DNA from: Bacilli bacterium
GTDB taxonomy: Bacteria > Bacillota_I > Bacilli_A > RFN20 > CAG-826
Assembly: GCA_024683495.1 (NCBI GenBank)
Contig: JAIKYF010000127.1
Span: forward strand, 1-38,570
DNA length: 38,570 nt
Direction: 5' to 3'
This document shows, in pieces, positions 4,294 to 20,726 of this stretch. The position numbers were made by a program, and so were the translations under genes. The notes beneath the pieces are model-generated. The model was not told the origin of the DNA. It was given only the letters and a program-made list of their open reading frames with translations, and did no database searches. Numbering within the stretch: position 1 is the stretch's first letter; every line of letters begins with the position of its first letter.

Positions 4294-4926
4294 CTAATAG
4301 CCTATTTTCTTTAAGAGGCCCGGGAGTTCATCTAAAGAAGAAATCCTCTCCACCCCTTCGATTTTGCTTCCAAAGCCATAGGAAGCATGGATGAAAGGGA
4401 TATCAGCTAAAGTGGATTCATCGTAGTCTTTTCTTGTATCGCCGATATAGATAGCCTTTTGGATTTTATGGTCGGCAATGATCTTCTTTATATTATCGTG
4501 TTTGACTAATCCGGTCTTCCCGACCGAGAGAAAATCCTTAAAGTATTTTTCGGTGTGGCAGGCTTCTAGATAGGCTTCGATGTAACCAGAATCGCAGTTA
4601 GAGACGATATATAAATCGTAGTCTTTCATCAAAGTCTCAAGCACTTCATATTCATGAGGATATAGGGTCCCAGGATTTACTAGCAATTCCTCAATTTCCC
4701 CGGCAATACACGCATGGAATAGTCTTTCTTGCTCATTTTCGCTCTCATTAGGGAAGGCCTTCACGTAGGTCTCTTCTGGAGTCAATCCCATATAGGAAGA
4801 AGTCTCTTCTAAAGTGAATCTATAAGGTTTCCCTTCTTTTATCATGGCCTTATTCCAGCCAATCGTATCGCTTTCGAGGGCATCCCATAAGGTCCCGTCT
4901 AAATCGAATATCAACGCGTTTTTCAT
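4294..4926 (-). CDS. HAD-superfamily hydrolase (phosphoglycolate phosphatase-like)
   Basis: Motif I FDLDGTLWDA, motif II VSNCDSGY, motif IV YIGDTRKDYDES. Confidence 0.85.
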   Translation of the reverse strand: MKNALIFDLDGTLWDALESDTIGWNKAMIKEGKPYRFTLEETSSYMGLTPEETYVKAFPNESENEQERLFHACIAGEIEELLVNPGTLYPHEYEVLETLMKDYDLYIVSNCDSGYIEAYLEACHTEKYFKDFLSVGKTGLVKHDNIKKIIADHKIQKAIYIGDTRKDYDESTLADIPFIHASYGFGSKIEGVERISSLDELPGLLKKIGY

Positions 4927-11620: not shown

Positions 11621-13150
11621 TTAAATGTTCTCGAGAGCCTCTTTCATCTCGGCATAGGTATCGAAGAATAGAGGCGTGATGCCGAATGAATCGAAATAGA
11701 TCTTCAAGGTCATTCTGTCATCATAAGTTAATTTGCATAATTGACCGGAGATGCTGACTAAAGAAGAGAGGAAGATGTATCTTTTCGGGAGTTCCTTGCC
11801 TTTCATCCTCAAAGCATCTTTGGATTCATAAAGGGCCCGCCTAAGATAAATATCCCTGAAAGATAGGCCGAGCATCAAGAATCCATCTTGGAGCGCCTCA
11901 TTAAGGCTCTCTTTCTGCCACTTACCAACGGTTCTATTGCCTGCTAAGGAGTCGAAATGCTCACCATAGAAGCTAAGATATTCGGTCTCGGTCAGGATGA
12001 AGCAAGTATCTTTAACGTCATCCTCCTTATAGCCATGGAAATGGTATGGCATCTTGCCATGAATATGGGCGATTCTCGCAGAAGCCCTGCTGTGATTAAG
12101 CGCTGTGCCAGATAAGGAAGTATTGAAAGTGAAGTCTTGAAGATTATCACAGAGCAAACCCATCTCTAGGTATTCATCATAATTGAAAGTGACGGCTTTA
12201 AGACCTTCATGGCGCTTCATCAAGGAGACGACGCCGTCGAATAAAGAACGGTCCTTGGTAAGTAATGGATGTTGATTATTCGCATCAAACTCCCCATAAA
12301 TTCCCTTATAGAGCAGTCTATAGTAGTCACTTCTTTTCTTGTCGCTATAGAGTTTTAGCTCGGCTATTTCGGTGATGGCATAGGTATCGGAATTAAAGGC
12401 ACCTTTGGAAATGAAAGGAGAATGATCCAAATAGTTTCTTGCCACTTCGGAATATATTCCATCGACCAATTTGCTCCAACTCTTGGCGCCGAAAGGAATC
12501 GATAAGCCATTCCCTAAAACCAACTTGAAATTCTTATTGGTTCTTATTTCATTTTTTAGTTCTTCGTAGATGGCATCTTGGGCTTTCTTAATCTCGTTTT
12601 CCGATAATTTCTCGGCCTTCTTGCCTTTTCTTTTATCGATGAGGTCGCGTCTACCGATTAATTCAAGGATCGGATCGCCTTCATAAGAATTGAGTTCGAA
12701 ATAGGGTCGAAGCAAAGAATATAAGGTGTCGAAACCCCAAATCTGGAGGTTGGGGAGCGGAGATTTGGCTTTCGGGGCATCGCTAAGATATTCGACGATG
12801 ACATAGCAGATATCTTTTGCCCCATTAGCGGCTTTGCATATCTTATTCAAAAGAGATTGCTCTAGGCGTGGGACGATTTTAATCTTGCCAGCCTTGAAGT
12901 TTTCATTCCTAAAATAATCATTTAGGGCCTTGAAGGGATAATGAGTGTAGAACTCATAGAAAACCTGGCCCTTCTTCAATGTGGCCTTGATGGCCTCATC
13001 GGCTTTCAAAGCCTCTTCGATATCATTGAATCCGGTCCATCTGGCATAGCTATGGACAAGCCCTTTCTTCAGAAAGCGGACTACCGTTTCATGGGTAAAA
13101 TCACTACGCTCGGAATATGGGGATGTCTCTTTAGGTTTAATCTCACTCAT
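11621..13150 (-). CDS. SIR2-like domain protein (candidate NADase / defence effector) with uncharacterised N-terminal domain
   Basis: FKLVLGNGLSIPFGAKSWSKLVDGI (nucleotide-binding Gly-rich loop), LKAVTFNYDEYLEMGL (TxNYD), ARIAHIHGKMPYH (HxHG), TCFILTETEYLSFYG, GFLMLGLSFRDIYLRRAL. Start set to ATG 13150; the track start 13159 is GTG. Confidence 0.75.
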   Translation of the reverse strand: MSEIKPKETSPYSERSDFTHETVVRFLKKGLVHSYARWTGFNDIEEALKADEAIKATLKKGQVFYEFYTHYPFKALNDYFRNENFKAGKIKIVPRLEQSLLNKICKAANGAKDICYVIVEYLSDAPKAKSPLPNLQIWGFDTLYSLLRPYFELNSYEGDPILELIGRRDLIDKRKGKKAEKLSENEIKKAQDAIYEELKNEIRTNKNFKLVLGNGLSIPFGAKSWSKLVDGIYSEVARNYLDHSPFISKGAFNSDTYAITEIAELKLYSDKKRSDYYRLLYKGIYGEFDANNQHPLLTKDRSLFDGVVSLMKRHEGLKAVTFNYDEYLEMGLLCDNLQDFTFNTSLSGTALNHSRASARIAHIHGKMPYHFHGYKEDDVKDTCFILTETEYLSFYGEHFDSLAGNRTVGKWQKESLNEALQDGFLMLGLSFRDIYLRRALYESKDALRMKGKELPKRYIFLSSLVSISGQLCKLTYDDRMTLKIYFDSFGITPLFFDTYAEMKEALENI

Positions 13151-13170
13151 TTGTTCCACCGCGACTATTT

Positions 13171-13200
13171 ATTATAGGCATTATTTAGGCTAATAGCCTA
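13171..13200 (-). promoter_or_regulatory. Predicted promoter/operator of the SIR2-like gene
   Basis: On the minus strand: perfect palindrome TAGGCTATTAGCCTA (13186-13200) upstream of TATAAT (13171-13176). Confidence 0.5.
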
Positions 13201-13228
13201 ATAGAATTACATTATCTAGATGAAAGGA

Positions 13229-13261
13229 AAACCCGCATTTTTAGAAAGATATGCGGGTTTT
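13229..13261 (-). terminator. Terminator downstream of the RlaP-type nucleotidyltransferase
   Basis: AAACCCGCAT...ATGCGGGTTT inverted repeat with T-rich flank on the minus strand. Confidence 0.75.
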
Positions 13262-13277
13262 GCACGGGATTTTTACT

Positions 13278-14108
13278 TTATTTACGGAATTTTTCCCTAA
13301 CTATTTGCTGAATTTCATCCTTAAGGGGATTGATTGGATCGCTATCGCTAATTTTAGTCGGAAGCTTATCGACCTCAGCCCTTAACTCCAAGGTCTCTAA
13401 TCTAATCTTCGCGATTAAATCATTAGCCTCCTCCATTTTCATCTTCCCTAATTTCACATCGAGGATTGTCTTCCTAACCTCTTCATCTTCTAAGCGAATG
13501 AGCTTTCCATATTCAAGATAAGGGTTAGAGAATTCTTTCTCTAAGCAACTCTTGAATAAGTAAAGATCGCGAATGGCATGTGAGGCGGCTTTGATGTCAT
13601 ATCCGTATTTATCGAAGACATCTTTTCTATTTTCGGTCCAGTGAAAAGCCTCTTGGCATTTCATCAGAGTCACTCCGCATAAGGATTTTAATAAAATCGT
13701 CCTTCTTGAAAAATAGAGATTATTGAAGAACTCTTCAGGGGTTTTTAATACCGAAAGAGCTTTGGAGTCATCGCTTGATACAACCATCTTAGAGAAGAAT
13801 AATTCTAGATAAGTGGGGTTCATCTTCCCAAGGAGATCAGGTAAGAGCCTGACATCATGCGAGGCGACTTGACCATGCTTCACATCATAGGTGTGAGAAA
13901 GGAACTTACCATTGTATAAATCATCGAAGGTGGGGTAGAAATAGCCCTTGCAGTCCACATCGCTGCTTTTTACCTCGAGATTATAATTTTGGGAGCCTTG
14001 TAGGAAACCGAAAAGCAACTCGTGCCCACTTAAGGAAGACGATTCATTGAGGTTTTGCAAGGTTTTTTGATAAAGTTCATTCTCAGACATGCTCATATTA
14101 TAACCCAA
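13278..14108 (-). CDS. Nucleotidyltransferase of the DNA polymerase beta superfamily (RlaP / YcgL-like)
   Basis: LLFGFLQGSQNYNLEVKSSDVDCKGYFYPTFDDLYNG has the GS and DxD motifs of the RlaP/COG3541-type NTases. Exact start uncertain (14108, 14093 or MSENE). Confidence 0.7.
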   Translation of the reverse strand: MGYNMSMSENELYQKTLQNLNESSSLSGHELLFGFLQGSQNYNLEVKSSDVDCKGYFYPTFDDLYNGKFLSHTYDVKHGQVASHDVRLLPDLLGKMNPTYLELFFSKMVVSSDDSKALSVLKTPEEFFNNLYFSRRTILLKSLCGVTLMKCQEAFHWTENRKDVFDKYGYDIKAASHAIRDLYLFKSCLEKEFSNPYLEYGKLIRLEDEEVRKTILDVKLGKMKMEEANDLIAKIRLETLELRAEVDKLPTKISDSDPINPLKDEIQQIVREKFRK

Positions 14109-16194: not shown

Positions 16195-17352
16195 ATGAAT
16201 TTCTCAATCGCCAATGGTATCCTCACCCTCTTTTTCGTAGGGGAAATCAATTCAGGAAATGCAGTCGCCGTAGAGAAAGACGCCATGGCCAGCATCGGCC
16301 AAAACAAATTCGAAAAGCTGGTTTTGGATTTCTCTGAAGTCACCTACATCTCCAGCGCAGGTCTTCGTATCATCCTCAAAATCAAACAAACATTCAAAGA
16401 AGTCTCAATCACAAATGCCTCGCTTGAGGTCTATGACGTTTTAAACATGACTGGTTTCACCAACATCATGCCGGTCGCCAAGGCCCTCAGAGAAGTAGAC
16501 GTCACCGGTAAAGAAATCATCGGAGAAGGATTTTTCTCCACCGTCTACCGCATCGATAAGGACACCATCGTCAAGGTCTTCAACGACCCAAAGACCGAAT
16601 ATTCCAGCATCCAAAGAGAACTTAATTTGGCCAAGGAAGCTTTCGTGCTCGGCATCCCCACCGCTATTTCTTTTGACATCGTCAAAGTCGGAAATCTTTA
16701 TGGCGTGAGATTTGAGTTACTCGATTCTTGCCTCCTTCGTGACGTTTTCCGTGATCAGCCCGGGAAAATGGATGAAGAAATTAAGAAATACGCTCAATTA
16801 TTGAAGAAAATCAATACAACCGAAACAGAAGATCAAAACCTTCCAAAAACTAAAGATCTTTGTCTTAAGAAACTAGAAACCATCAAACATTTGTTCACCG
16901 ATGAAGAAAACGAGCAAATGAGAAAGATGGTTGAAGGCATCCCCGATAGAAACACCTTCGTTCATGGCGATTGCCATTTCAAGAACATCATGGTTCAGAA
17001 TAACGAATTGTTCCTAATTGATATGGACACCCTTTCAAAAGGCCATCCAATCTTTGAATTGGCCGCCATCTGCGCCCCCTATATCCTGTTTGAACAAGAT
17101 GATCCGGGAAATAACCTCAGATTCTTTGGATTATCCAAAGAAGTCGTCACCCCAATTTACGAAAAGACCATCAATGAATATTTTGGGAAGGATGATGATG
17201 ACATCAAAGGCAAAATCATGCTTCTGGGGTATATGCATATGGTTTGGTGGACTCTTGAATATCAACCTGACAACAGCAAGAGACTCAATCACTGCAAAGC
17301 AGAAGTCTCAGCAAGACTAAAGATTTATAAGGACTTTGACATCGGTATCTAA
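16195..17352 (+). CDS. STAS domain (anti-sigma factor antagonist-like) fused to an APH/choline kinase-like phosphotransferase
   Basis: N-term GKLxxDxSxVxYISSAGLRIILKIK-type STAS motif (LVLDFSEVTYISSAGLRIIL); C-term GEGFFSTVYRIDKDTIVKVF, FVHGDCHFKNIMV, FLIDMDTLSKGHPIFELA. Confidence 0.85.
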   Translation: MNFSIANGILTLFFVGEINSGNAVAVEKDAMASIGQNKFEKLVLDFSEVTYISSAGLRIILKIKQTFKEVSITNASLEVYDVLNMTGFTNIMPVAKALREVDVTGKEIIGEGFFSTVYRIDKDTIVKVFNDPKTEYSSIQRELNLAKEAFVLGIPTAISFDIVKVGNLYGVRFELLDSCLLRDVFRDQPGKMDEEIKKYAQLLKKINTTETEDQNLPKTKDLCLKKLETIKHLFTDEENEQMRKMVEGIPDRNTFVHGDCHFKNIMVQNNELFLIDMDTLSKGHPIFELAAICAPYILFEQDDPGNNLRFFGLSKEVVTPIYEKTINEYFGKDDDDIKGKIMLLGYMHMVWWTLEYQPDNSKRLNHCKAEVSARLKIYKDFDIGI

Positions 17353-17354
17353 TC

Positions 17355-19187
17355 GTGAGCACAGAAGACGCTTTTCAAAAAAATGAGATAGATGCTAACC
17401 GACAAATGGGTCGCATCTCCATCGTCGCTGCCATTATTATGGTGCTTTTGATGATTGGATATATCACCAAGCTTTTCCCTATGAGAAGCTATAACTTGGT
17501 CTATGTCTTCTTCCCCATCAGTATCGTCGCTTTGGCTGGCGCTGCTATCCTCTCGAAAACAAAATTCCTCTACAAATCCGGCTTTAAATACTATGCGATG
17601 GCCACTTTCATCCTGGCTTTCGCGATCCTTTCAGTCATCGTTCCAAAACATGCGATTTTGACTTGGGCCATCCCCGTCGCGGTTGCCAACCACTACTACC
17701 GTCCAAAATTAAGTTTGGTTGTCTTCATCATCTGCGCGGTATCTTTAGTCGCCTGCGTTTATCTTGGAGCCTTCTTCGGTGAATATGATCCGAACTTATT
17801 GAGCGCCGGTAAGGTCATCTATGATGAGGCCACTCAAACCTATGTCATCTATCAACCCGATAATCCAGTCGAAAGATGGAACATGCTCATTGAATGGAGT
17901 CAAAAAAGAGGAGCCAATAGATTCCTTCAGATCTTCTTGTTCTATTGCCTGCCAAGACTCTTGGCGTTAACAATTGTCTTCTTGGCCTCCTATGCCTTAA
18001 GCAACCGTACCCAGACTCTTCTTGTAAACGAAATCAAAGCCACTGAAAGCTCGAGAAGAATCGATACTGAGCTTAATGTCGCTAGAGAAATTCAATATTC
18101 GGCTCTTCCGAAAGAATTCCGCTCAACGCAGCATGTTGATATTTTGGCCGAATTGGTGACCGCCAAGGAAGTGGGCGGAGACCTTTATGATTATGTCGTA
18201 ATCGACGATGAGCATATCGGAGTTTTAATCGGCGACGTCTCAGGGAAAGGAATTCCTGCCGCGATGTTCATGATGAAAACCATCACCAGTTTCAGAGCCT
18301 ATATCAATACCAGCGATTCACCAGCCGAGATCATGCGCAACGTCAATAAAATCCTTTATAACGGAAATGAGAGCAAGATGTTCGTCACTTGCTTCTTGGC
18401 GATTCTAAACACCAGAACCGGCGTCGTCAAATTCGCTAACGCCGGCCACAATCCTCCAATCATCGGCGAAGAGAAGAATTATAAATATCTCAAGTGCAAT
18501 AGCGGATTCCTTCTTGGGGCCATGGAAGATTCATTCGCCATCGACGAAGTATTCACTCTTAAGCCTGGGCAAACCATCTTCTTCTATACCGATGGGATTA
18601 CCGAAGCCCGTGACGTCAATTCTGGCTTCTTTGGTGAAAAGCACTTGCTTGAGACATTCAATAAGGTCGAAGGCGATTCTATCATTGATCTCCATCACAC
18701 CATTCTAGAAGAACTGAAGAAATATATGGAAGGCGCCGATCAGTTTGATGATATGACTTATGTCATGCTCAGATATAAAGGCGATGAGATTGTCGACTTC
18801 GAAAGAATCTTCTCCACCGATAGCGAAACTTCAAAAGAAGCTATCTCCTTTGTCAATGAGTCGTTATCAGGCAACGGATATGATTCTCTTAAAGATAAAT
18901 TTTCTGAGGTTGTTGATGAGGTCTATTCCAACATCTCCCGCTACGTTTATGGGGGATTTGACGGGAAAATTTATCTTAGATTATCTATTAACAAGAAGAA
19001 AAATGAGCTGATCCTAACCTTTATAGATGGCGGTGAAGATTTCAACATCCTTTCTGATGAAGTCGCTAAAGATGGCCATAAAGTTGAGATAATTAAAACC
19101 AAGAGCATCATGGATGAAGCCTCCTATTCGAGAATCCATGACAAAAACATCATCTATCTACGGAAGGAAATCGATTCTCTTTCCTAA
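17355..19187 (+). CDS. Membrane-anchored PP2C (SpoIIE/RsbU-like) phosphatase with C-terminal HATPase (RsbW-like) domain
   Basis: GTG start. Multiple N-terminal TM segments; LNVAREIQYSALPKEF, AKEVGGDLYDYVVIDDEHIGVLIGDVSGKGIPAAMFM, FANAGHNPP, FFYTDGITEARD, DDMTYVMLRYKG; C-term FSEVVDEVYSNISRYVY...LTFIDGGEDFN. Confidence 0.85.
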   Translation: MSTEDAFQKNEIDANRQMGRISIVAAIIMVLLMIGYITKLFPMRSYNLVYVFFPISIVALAGAAILSKTKFLYKSGFKYYAMATFILAFAILSVIVPKHAILTWAIPVAVANHYYRPKLSLVVFIICAVSLVACVYLGAFFGEYDPNLLSAGKVIYDEATQTYVIYQPDNPVERWNMLIEWSQKRGANRFLQIFLFYCLPRLLALTIVFLASYALSNRTQTLLVNEIKATESSRRIDTELNVAREIQYSALPKEFRSTQHVDILAELVTAKEVGGDLYDYVVIDDEHIGVLIGDVSGKGIPAAMFMMKTITSFRAYINTSDSPAEIMRNVNKILYNGNESKMFVTCFLAILNTRTGVVKFANAGHNPPIIGEEKNYKYLKCNSGFLLGAMEDSFAIDEVFTLKPGQTIFFYTDGITEARDVNSGFFGEKHLLETFNKVEGDSIIDLHHTILEELKKYMEGADQFDDMTYVMLRYKGDEIVDFERIFSTDSETSKEAISFVNESLSGNGYDSLKDKFSEVVDEVYSNISRYVYGGFDGKIYLRLSINKKKNELILTFIDGGEDFNILSDEVAKDGHKVEIIKTKSIMDEASYSRIHDKNIIYLRKEIDSLS

Positions 19188-19262
19188 TTATTTTCGAATA
19201 ATATCCTCACCAAATATGATTTTGGTTGATTTAAGTCTAGATAAATAGTTCAATATTTGAGC

Positions 19263-19307
19263 GAAGATGTTCCTTGCCTAACCATCTTCCAAATAAAAAA
19301 CAAGGAG
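19263..19307 (+). ncRNA. preQ1-I riboswitch (translational), overlapping the Shine-Dalgarno of the VUT gene
   Basis: P1 GAAGATG (19263-19269) / CATCTTC (19283-19289). Loop TTCCTTGCCTAAC. A-rich tail CAAATAAAAAACAAGGAG. Pseudoknot P2 CCTTG (19272-19276) / CAAGG (19301-19305), where CAAGGAG is also the RBS. Confidence 0.85.
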
Positions 19308-19314
19308 ACGTTTT

Positions 19315-20082
19315 ATGAAGAATCTTAGATTCTCGGTGCGTTCCTTTTTTAAGGAATGTTTTATTTTGCTCCGCAGCACCCCACCAGTGACCTTGACCTT
19401 ATTCGTTCTTTCCATCGTGGGAATGAACCTCTTGGCCAACAAGAGCATTAACACAGGCTTAGATTGGTTAGCTCTTGATTGCGGCATCATCCTTTCTTGG
19501 CTTTGCTTCCTCTCGATGGACATCTTGACGAAGCATTATGGCCCTAAGGCGGCGATCATCATCTCGATATTTGCCTTATTGGTTAGCCTAGGCATCTCGG
19601 TCATCTTCCTGTTCGGAAGTTTGATCCCGGGCGTTTGGAGCCCTTTCTATGACTTTGGCGAACAACAAGTCATCAACCAATCTTTGGACAGCATGTTCAG
19701 AGGTACCTGGTACATCATTTTAGGTAGTTCGGCTGCCTTCATCGTGTCGGCTGTCGTTAATGCCATCATGAATTGGAGCGTTGGCAAAATCTTCAAGAAA
19801 AATCCTGATGGTTTCTTAGCCTTCGCCACTAGAACCTATGTATCGACCATCATTGGGCAATTCGTCGATAACTTAGTGTTCGCTCTCATCGTCAGTATGG
19901 TATTCTTTGGTTGGAGTTTCCTCCAATGCGTGACCTGCGCTTTGACTGGGGCGATTGCTGAATTATTATTCGAAATCGTTTTCTCCCCAATAGGATATCG
20001 CATTTGCAGAAACTTAAAGAAGAATGAGGTTGGCAAGCCTTATTTCGACTACTTAGCCGCTAAACAATCGGAGGCAAAATAA
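19315..20082 (+). CDS. VUT-family transporter, probable queuosine precursor transporter (YhhQ-like)
   Basis: LTLFVLSIVGMNLLANKSINTGLDWLALDCGIILSWLCFLSMDILTKHYGPKAA matches VUT/YhhQ-type N-termini; preQ1 riboswitch upstream. Confidence 0.85.
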   Translation: MKNLRFSVRSFFKECFILLRSTPPVTLTLFVLSIVGMNLLANKSINTGLDWLALDCGIILSWLCFLSMDILTKHYGPKAAIIISIFALLVSLGISVIFLFGSLIPGVWSPFYDFGEQQVINQSLDSMFRGTWYIILGSSAAFIVSAVVNAIMNWSVGKIFKKNPDGFLAFATRTYVSTIIGQFVDNLVFALIVSMVFFGWSFLQCVTCALTGAIAELLFEIVFSPIGYRICRNLKKNEVGKPYFDYLAAKQSEAK

Positions 20083-20726
20083 TGAAAATCATCATCTCTG
20101 GAACATCCACCGGCATCGGTAAATCCATTGCTGAAAAATTCCTTAACGAGGGACATGAGGTTTTTGGACTCGATATCAAGGAATCGAGGATCGAAAACCC
20201 CTGCTACCACCATATCGTTGCTGATGTCACAAAGAAAATGCCATCACTTCCAGAGGCCGATGTCATCATTTCCAATGCCGGAGTCTTCGATGAAGAAAAG
20301 GCCATTGAGGTAAACCTCAAAGGTGCTATCAATTTTGTTGAAGCCTATAAGGATTCCCCTTATTTAAAATCCGTTCTCTTCGTCGCTTCTAGCTCAGCTA
20401 GAAATGGTGCGGAGTTCCCTTTATATTCCGCTTCGAAAGGCGGTCTAGTCACCTATATGAAGAATCTTGCTGTTTCTTTAGCCGCTCGTGGCATCACCGT
20501 TAACAGCGTTTCTCCAGGCGCGGTCATCACCGAAAGCAACGGCCATCTGATTTCCGATAAAAAGAAATTCGAAGCCATCGCTAACGAGTCACTATTAAAA
20601 AAATGGGCCAAACCAGAAGAGATAGCTGAATGGGTCTATTTCCTCACGGTGGTCAACAAAAGCATGACAGGCGAAGACCTATTAATCGATAATGGAGAAA
20701 TCCTTAAGAGCAACTTTATTTGGTAA
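20082..20726 (+). CDS. Short-chain dehydrogenase/reductase (SDR)
   Basis: ISGTSTGIGKSIAEKFL, SNAG, YSASKGGLVTYMKNLAVSLAARGITVNSVSPGAV; overlaps the stop of the transporter gene (coupled). Confidence 0.9.
   Translation: MKIIISGTSTGIGKSIAEKFLNEGHEVFGLDIKESRIENPCYHHIVADVTKKMPSLPEADVIISNAGVFDEEKAIEVNLKGAINFVEAYKDSPYLKSVLFVASSSARNGAEFPLYSASKGGLVTYMKNLAVSLAARGITVNSVSPGAVITESNGHLISDKKKFEAIANESLLKKWAKPEEIAEWVYFLTVVNKSMTGEDLLIDNGEILKSNFIW

Follow-up and report, generated by a model that had tools for sequence, protein, structure and literature searches.

A probable preQ1-I riboswitch scoring below the Rfam threshold in the leader of a Vut_1 transporter operon from a Bacilli bacterium

A contig of 38,570 nt from a Bacilli bacterium of the CAG-826 lineage (JAIKYF010000127.1; analyzed whole and referred to below as the window) carries a short, structured leader directly ahead of a predicted operon for a Vut_1 family transporter and a short-chain dehydrogenase/reductase (SDR). 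The locus raises the question of whether this leader is a riboswitch and, if so, of which type and for which ligand. We conclude that it is very probably a translational OFF riboswitch of the preQ1-I class, nearest to type II, acting on the Vut_1-SDR operon. Elements of this sequence variant are widespread, and they score under the threshold of the Rfam PreQ1 model.

Structure and conservation of the leader element

The element spans 19263–19305 and consists of a 7-bp stem (P1) and a 5-bp pseudoknot (P2, CCUUG/CAAGG; Table 1). A preliminary description of this DNA had proposed a 7-bp P1, a loop, an A-rich tail and a 5-bp P2 (CCTTG/CAAGG) placed on the ribosome-binding site, and all of these parts were found in the sequence. 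Only its spacing of 8 nt to the ATG has to be corrected: the gap to the start codon at 19315 is 9 nt from the 3′ strand of P2 and 7 nt from AAGGAG. In the alignment of relatives, U19270 and C19282, which open and close the loop, are invariant columns, partly because the search pattern imposed them; relatives collected with no preset pattern conserve both as well, together with A19300–C19301. By analogy, U19270 and C19282 would take the places of the U that contacts the ligand and the C that confers specificity in preQ1-I aptamers (PMC10622847, PMC11625349). Longer P1 stems go with a longer span from P1 to P2 (rho 0.72), which is compatible with one single strand having to pass P1.

A held-out covariance model (R2), built from 31 sequences that all lie outside the order of the window, recovered 19262–19307 at 71.4 bits (E = 3.5e-18); the next-best match in the window scored 7.4 bits. 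Relatives were also collected by scanning genome contigs with the pattern TTCCTTGCNNAACC-N8-38-AAAACARGG, in which P1 is left out. This gave at least 118 exact matches, and 94 among the matches listed have a P1 of at least four pairs in their flanks. Another 24 listed matches lack a contiguous P1; 18 of them, from Proteobacteria, Chloroflexi and other groups, have an unrelated gene or no gene downstream, as chance predicts, and in the other six the loop is longer by one or two bases and a queuosine gene follows. Across 50 aligned relatives, six of the seven P1 pairs have changed on both sides, with 62 doubly changed cells as opposed to 17.2 ± 5.6 in shuffles, a number that none of 500 shuffles reached. 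The aligned structure outscored every slid version of itself over the same 50 sequences, and P1 was the minimum-energy structure of 36 of the 50 aptamer segments.

Several observations weigh against the assignment. An Rfam search of the window at the gathering threshold gave no match. RF00522 (PreQ1) was the best Rfam match of the 218-nt leader, with 23.8 bits (E 0.0055) against a cut-off of 39, and that cut-off was reached by none of 18 related loci with the architecture of the window. P2 is complementary in all 50 relatives (100% of cells), its sole variation being a change of one pair from U-A to U-G, and covariation cannot confirm a stem that is nearly invariant. Covariation is uninformative here because the Shine–Dalgarno strand is tied to its ribosome-binding role and the search pattern prescribed both strands, so the evidence for the predicted P2 is complementarity rather than covariation. 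Most loop and P2 letters of the pattern-found relatives were likewise preset by the pattern. Finally, single-strand folding of the extended window leader favored a non-pseudoknot hairpin (−10 kcal/mol) that also covers the Shine–Dalgarno sequence.

The leader of E. coli yhhQ (L079), whose preQ1-I aptamer has a published co-crystal structure with preQ1 (PMC10622847), was included in the same Rfam search as a positive control and was not listed at E values up to 10. Because a crystal-proven preQ1-I riboswitch misses the cut-off too, the cut-off does not decide membership, and it was dropped as an arbiter. The same control disposes of a counter-check offered in the preliminary description, a covariance-model search for a hit above threshold: Rfam did indeed give none, but yhhQ fails likewise and the check is invalid. 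When matches were reported by E value, RF00522 aligned over its full length, all 45 positions, exactly at the element. Its E value over the whole window was only 0.97, as might be expected if a hairpin had come to lie beside an A-rich ribosome-binding site by accident; the R2 score and the P1 covariation refute such a coincidence, conservation across families and classes speaks against it, and we consider it virtually inconceivable. The competing non-pseudoknot hairpin depends on the letters ACGTTTT 3′ of the Shine–Dalgarno sequence, which by inspection are absent from relatives. This nested fold, AAGAUGUUCCUUG with CAAGGAGACGUUUU, was rejected as the functional structure since the relatives have no such partner and most aptamer segments (the 36 of 50 given above) fold to P1.

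Table 1. Features of the leader and the operon in the window
Feature	Position	Strand	Basis or remark
P1 5′ strand GAAGATG	19263..19269	+	read from sequence
Aptamer loop TTCCTTGCCTAAC, 13 nt	19270..19282	+	sequence
P2 5′ strand CCTTG, anti-Shine–Dalgarno	19272..19276	+	paired in 50/50 aligned relatives
P1 3′ strand CATCTTC	19283..19289	+	sequence; P1 covariation
A-rich L3 CAAATAAAAAA, predicted to lie across the groove of P1	19290..19300	+	sequence; A-rich in relatives too
P2 3′ strand CAAGG, overlaps Shine–Dalgarno	19301..19305	+	sequence; paired in relatives
Shine–Dalgarno AAGGAG, 7 nt before ATG (19315)	19302..19307	+	sequence
Vut_1/QPTR (COG1738, YhhQ-like) transporter, 255 aa, predicted queuosine-precursor importer	19315..20082	+	PF02592
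Short-chain dehydrogenase/reductase (SDR)	20082..20726	+	PF13561/PF00106; same operon

Genes and leaders at related loci

Wherever the downstream gene was readable, all 94 P1-bearing listed matches precede Vut_1 (as Vut_1-SDR), QueT or a radical-SAM gene; a few are without a gene call owing to the locus end or masking, or as unresolved cases. The QueT assignments were checked with PF06177. The radical-SAM proteins show a weak resemblance to RaSEA, the archaeosine enzyme, with TIGR01210 below its cut-off. At seven loci (L098, L113, L127, L140, L173, L185 and L240), the same aptamer precedes a RaSEA-like radical-SAM protein of 230 aa, possibly a queuine-salvage enzyme resembling QueL. Hosts of the motif include Clostridium algifaecis, Clostridium sp. 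MD294, Anaeroplasma bactoclasticum, Dielma fastidiosa and many metagenome-assembled genomes from gut and rumen.

A leader pseudoknot that is conserved because it responds to protein binding or to temperature, rather than to a ligand, would also place P2 directly over the Shine–Dalgarno sequence, and preQ1 is a ligand that we infer here. Such control would hardly be confined to queuosine-precursor genes of different families (Vut_1, QueT and radical SAM), would leave the in-register match to the Rfam preQ1 model unaccounted for, and requires far less conservation of the loop letters than was seen, as a simple anti-Shine–Dalgarno hairpin would do. We regard it as very improbable, and a ligand-responsive preQ1-I element remains the preferred reading.

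Model searches widened the range of forms. An order-wide search with no fixed letters yielded loop variants such as UUACCUUG and UUGUCCUUG. Phylum-wide, the locus L251 was found, with AGAGG-UUCCCUUGCUAAAC-CCUCU...CAAGG, which resembles the B. subtilis aptamer and presumably bridges the window group and the B. subtilis type. At three loci (L003, 1418–1495; L091, about 4370–4450; and L095), inserts of ∼20–35 nt lie between P1 and the A-rich strand and form hairpins in L003 and L095; the aptamer linker therefore tolerates large insertions.

A search that used a Vut_1 protein alignment and not the motif matched 71 of 279 genomes of the order. The relatives found in this way have either the architecture of the window (A) or another preQ1-I-like leader ahead of the orthologous gene, and across the order the Vut_1 leaders fall mainly into three architectures. 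The commonest, borne by most Vut_1 genes of the order, is B, GCGGAG-UUCGGCCUCUAAAUC-CUUCGC with AAAACCAAGGAG, seen for example in L005, L021, L035 and ∼40 other Vut_1 loci; this leader was not listed by Rfam at E up to 10. Architecture C is GACAG-UUCGCGACCAUC-CUGUC with AAACAAAACUAUGG. In both B and C, UC stands before the 3′ strand of P1, a mark of type I (PMC11625349), whereas the window and the protein-found relatives of architecture A have AC, a mark of type II that is common to type III. The pattern-found relatives all have AAC at this place, which the pattern had preset. Orthologous transporters of the order thus sit behind different preQ1-I-like leaders, of which C is the third type. 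Leaders of this third type, GACAG-UUCG...CCAUC-CUGUC (L013, L015, L018 and L058), have a CUAUGGAG or CCAGGAAC tail, and several are followed by a terminator-like hairpin and a T run, which suggests transcriptional control of the same gene.

Predicted queuosine salvage in the host and the presumed ligand

The transporter matched Pfam Vut_1 (PF02592) with an E value of 4.9e-21 (76.1 bits; gathering cut-off 27.2), which bears out its earlier identification as a VUT protein. Its score of 33.9 bits with NCBIfam TIGR00697, the queuosine precursor transporter equivalog, is under the cut-off of 50.95. Judged by sequence, the protein is a divergent member of the Pfam Vut_1 family, and its likely substrate is deduced from context. 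The SDR start overlaps the last base of the transporter stop codon (1 nt). A translationally coupled SDR (MKVLITGTSxGIGKAIAEKFL...) follows Vut_1 in nearly all loci, in Bacilli and Clostridia and whatever the leader type; the literature searched gave no role for it in the salvage of queuosine.

The draft genome of the host is 1.59 Mb and 85% complete, with the window as contig 44. The genes tgt, queA and queH lie together on contig 162, and searches of the 85% complete draft gave no match for queC, queF or QueT. The combination of tgt-queA-queH without queC and queF is the "Ap" signature of preQ1 salvage (PMC6593275). With this gene set the host should salvage preQ1, and the suggestion in the preliminary description that it takes up precursors rather than making them held. 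The expected import is preQ1 rather than queuine because queA is present; queuine import as the strategy of the host was rejected on the presence of queA and queH.

Nearly all of 61 related genomes have tgt-queA-queH and no queF, and the three that bear queF carry queC-Vut_1-queF operons. QueT (42 genomes) and Vut_1 (8 genomes) never occur together among the 61 (p = 2.6e-5, a value that ignores relatedness). Genus mates have QueT as the first gene of the tgt-queA-queH cluster, preceded by a divergent preQ1-I-like leader, and in the two genomes of the genus with Vut_1 that cluster is without QueT. Vut_1 thus seems to stand in for QueT, and this favors a substrate of the preQ1 type. The genus-mate leaders before queT-tgt-queA-queH (L269–L297) read ACGUG-UUCYWUCCUCUGAAC-CACGU-AUAAAAAACAAGGAGG, and a UUGCUCCUCUUGCUC loop variant with a CAGGGAGG tail was also seen.

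The natural ligand of the same fold, working by the same mechanism, could be another 7-deazaguanine (preQ0, queuine or queuosine). Substrates of QPTR proteins vary: E. coli members transport preQ0/preQ1, those of Chlamydia queuine (PMC11130926). The loop and P2 are, in addition, unlike those of characterized types, and the operon also includes the SDR. However, the queA and queH enzymes work on preQ1-tRNA products, so importing queuine would give them nothing to do, and preQ0 would be a dead end given that queF is absent. The A before the specificity C, the U and the A of L3 would, moreover, fit preQ1-I pockets. A ligand other than preQ1 is, on balance, improbable.

A scan between P1 and the ATG found no terminator, and the counts were near shuffled expectation; transcriptional control by an intrinsic terminator was rejected on this ground, and translational control is the simpler reading. 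The preQ1 riboswitch of L. monocytogenes queT has been shown to be translational (PMC12519234). In the proposed mechanism, P1 would form when preQ1 is scarce, and CCUUG in the loop would leave the Shine–Dalgarno sequence unheld, permitting translation of the importer. At high levels of preQ1, the ligand would fit between P1 and P2, with G19269–C19283 as the floor of the pocket and G19276–C19301 as its ceiling, by analogy with known structures (PMC10622847, PMC11625349, PMC8752633). C19282 would read the Watson–Crick face of the ligand, and U19270 and A19300 would touch its edge. The ligand would thereby lock CCUUG onto CAAGG and bury the AAGG of the Shine–Dalgarno sequence, and neither the importer nor the coupled SDR would be translated any longer.

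Relation to known preQ1-I types

Published type definitions were used for comparison (PMC11625349, PMC8752633). With type II (T. tengcongensis [Tte] and B. subtilis), the window element shares AC before the 3′ strand of P1, U after the 5′ strand, an A-rich L3, a G-C pair at the base of P2 and, as in Tte, an ACAAGG tail overlapping the Shine–Dalgarno sequence; it differs in its Rfam score, which is under threshold. The AC and the ACAAGG tail place it nearest to this type, in keeping with the Tte-like translational layout first suggested for it. Type III, represented by E. coli yhhQ, shares UU after P1, AC before the 3′ strand of P1, a pyrimidine-rich loop start, a variable linker followed by poly-A, AAGG paired in P2 and control of a YhhQ/QPTR transporter (PMC10622847). 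However, the E. coli loop (UUCCCUCAC) has 9 nt, whereas that of the window has 13 nt with a purine, G, closing P2. Furthermore, P2 of type III has three canonical pairs, and the type is nearly confined to Pseudomonadota, whereas the window group is in Bacillota. Type I, represented by the switch of Carnobacterium antarcticus with two stacked ligands, has UU after P1 and a compact H-type pseudoknot on the Shine–Dalgarno sequence in common with the window. It has UC before the 3′ strand of P1 and a CUA tail (PMC8752633); the window has AC and CAA instead, and a second ligand site is therefore not expected. The queK-qrtT-queL switch of C. difficile, compared by its description, follows the same logic in controlling salvage genes that include a radical-SAM enzyme, with a different gene set (PMC11477304).

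The class, its target genes and its regulatory logic are known already. No description of a type II-like pocket combined with a 13-nt loop and five contiguous Watson–Crick P2 pairs was found in a literature search that did not extend to the type-defining alignments; a literature search for the loop sequence found nothing, which is weak evidence. We tentatively raise the possibility, about which we are somewhat more doubtful than confident, of an undescribed fourth preQ1-I subgroup in Bacillota. It would combine a type II-like pocket with a fully Watson–Crick P2 of 5 bp pairing AAGG and, sometimes, a hairpin between P1 and the A-rich strand; it would be missed by Rfam and would control Vut_1-SDR, QueT and radical-SAM salvage genes.

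With this assignment, the annotation of preQ1 control reaches uncultured Bacilli and Clostridia of the gut and rumen that have no call at the Rfam threshold. The assignment also ties a divergent Vut_1 transporter and its co-transcribed SDR to the salvage of queuosine precursors. A compact switch that pairs AAGG by ordinary base pairs would also be a useful contrast to the non-canonical P2 of the Tte switch.

Elsewhere in the window, a SIR2-like protein (PADLOC LmuA model, E 5.6e-8; PF13289) and a predicted nucleotidyltransferase (RlaP, PF10127) lie side by side on the minus strand at 11621–14108 and are possibly a defense-type pair. Just upstream of the element, at 16195–19187, a STAS-kinase fusion (STAS and APH domains) and a SpoIIE phosphatase are a possible anti-sigma-antagonist regulatory pair.
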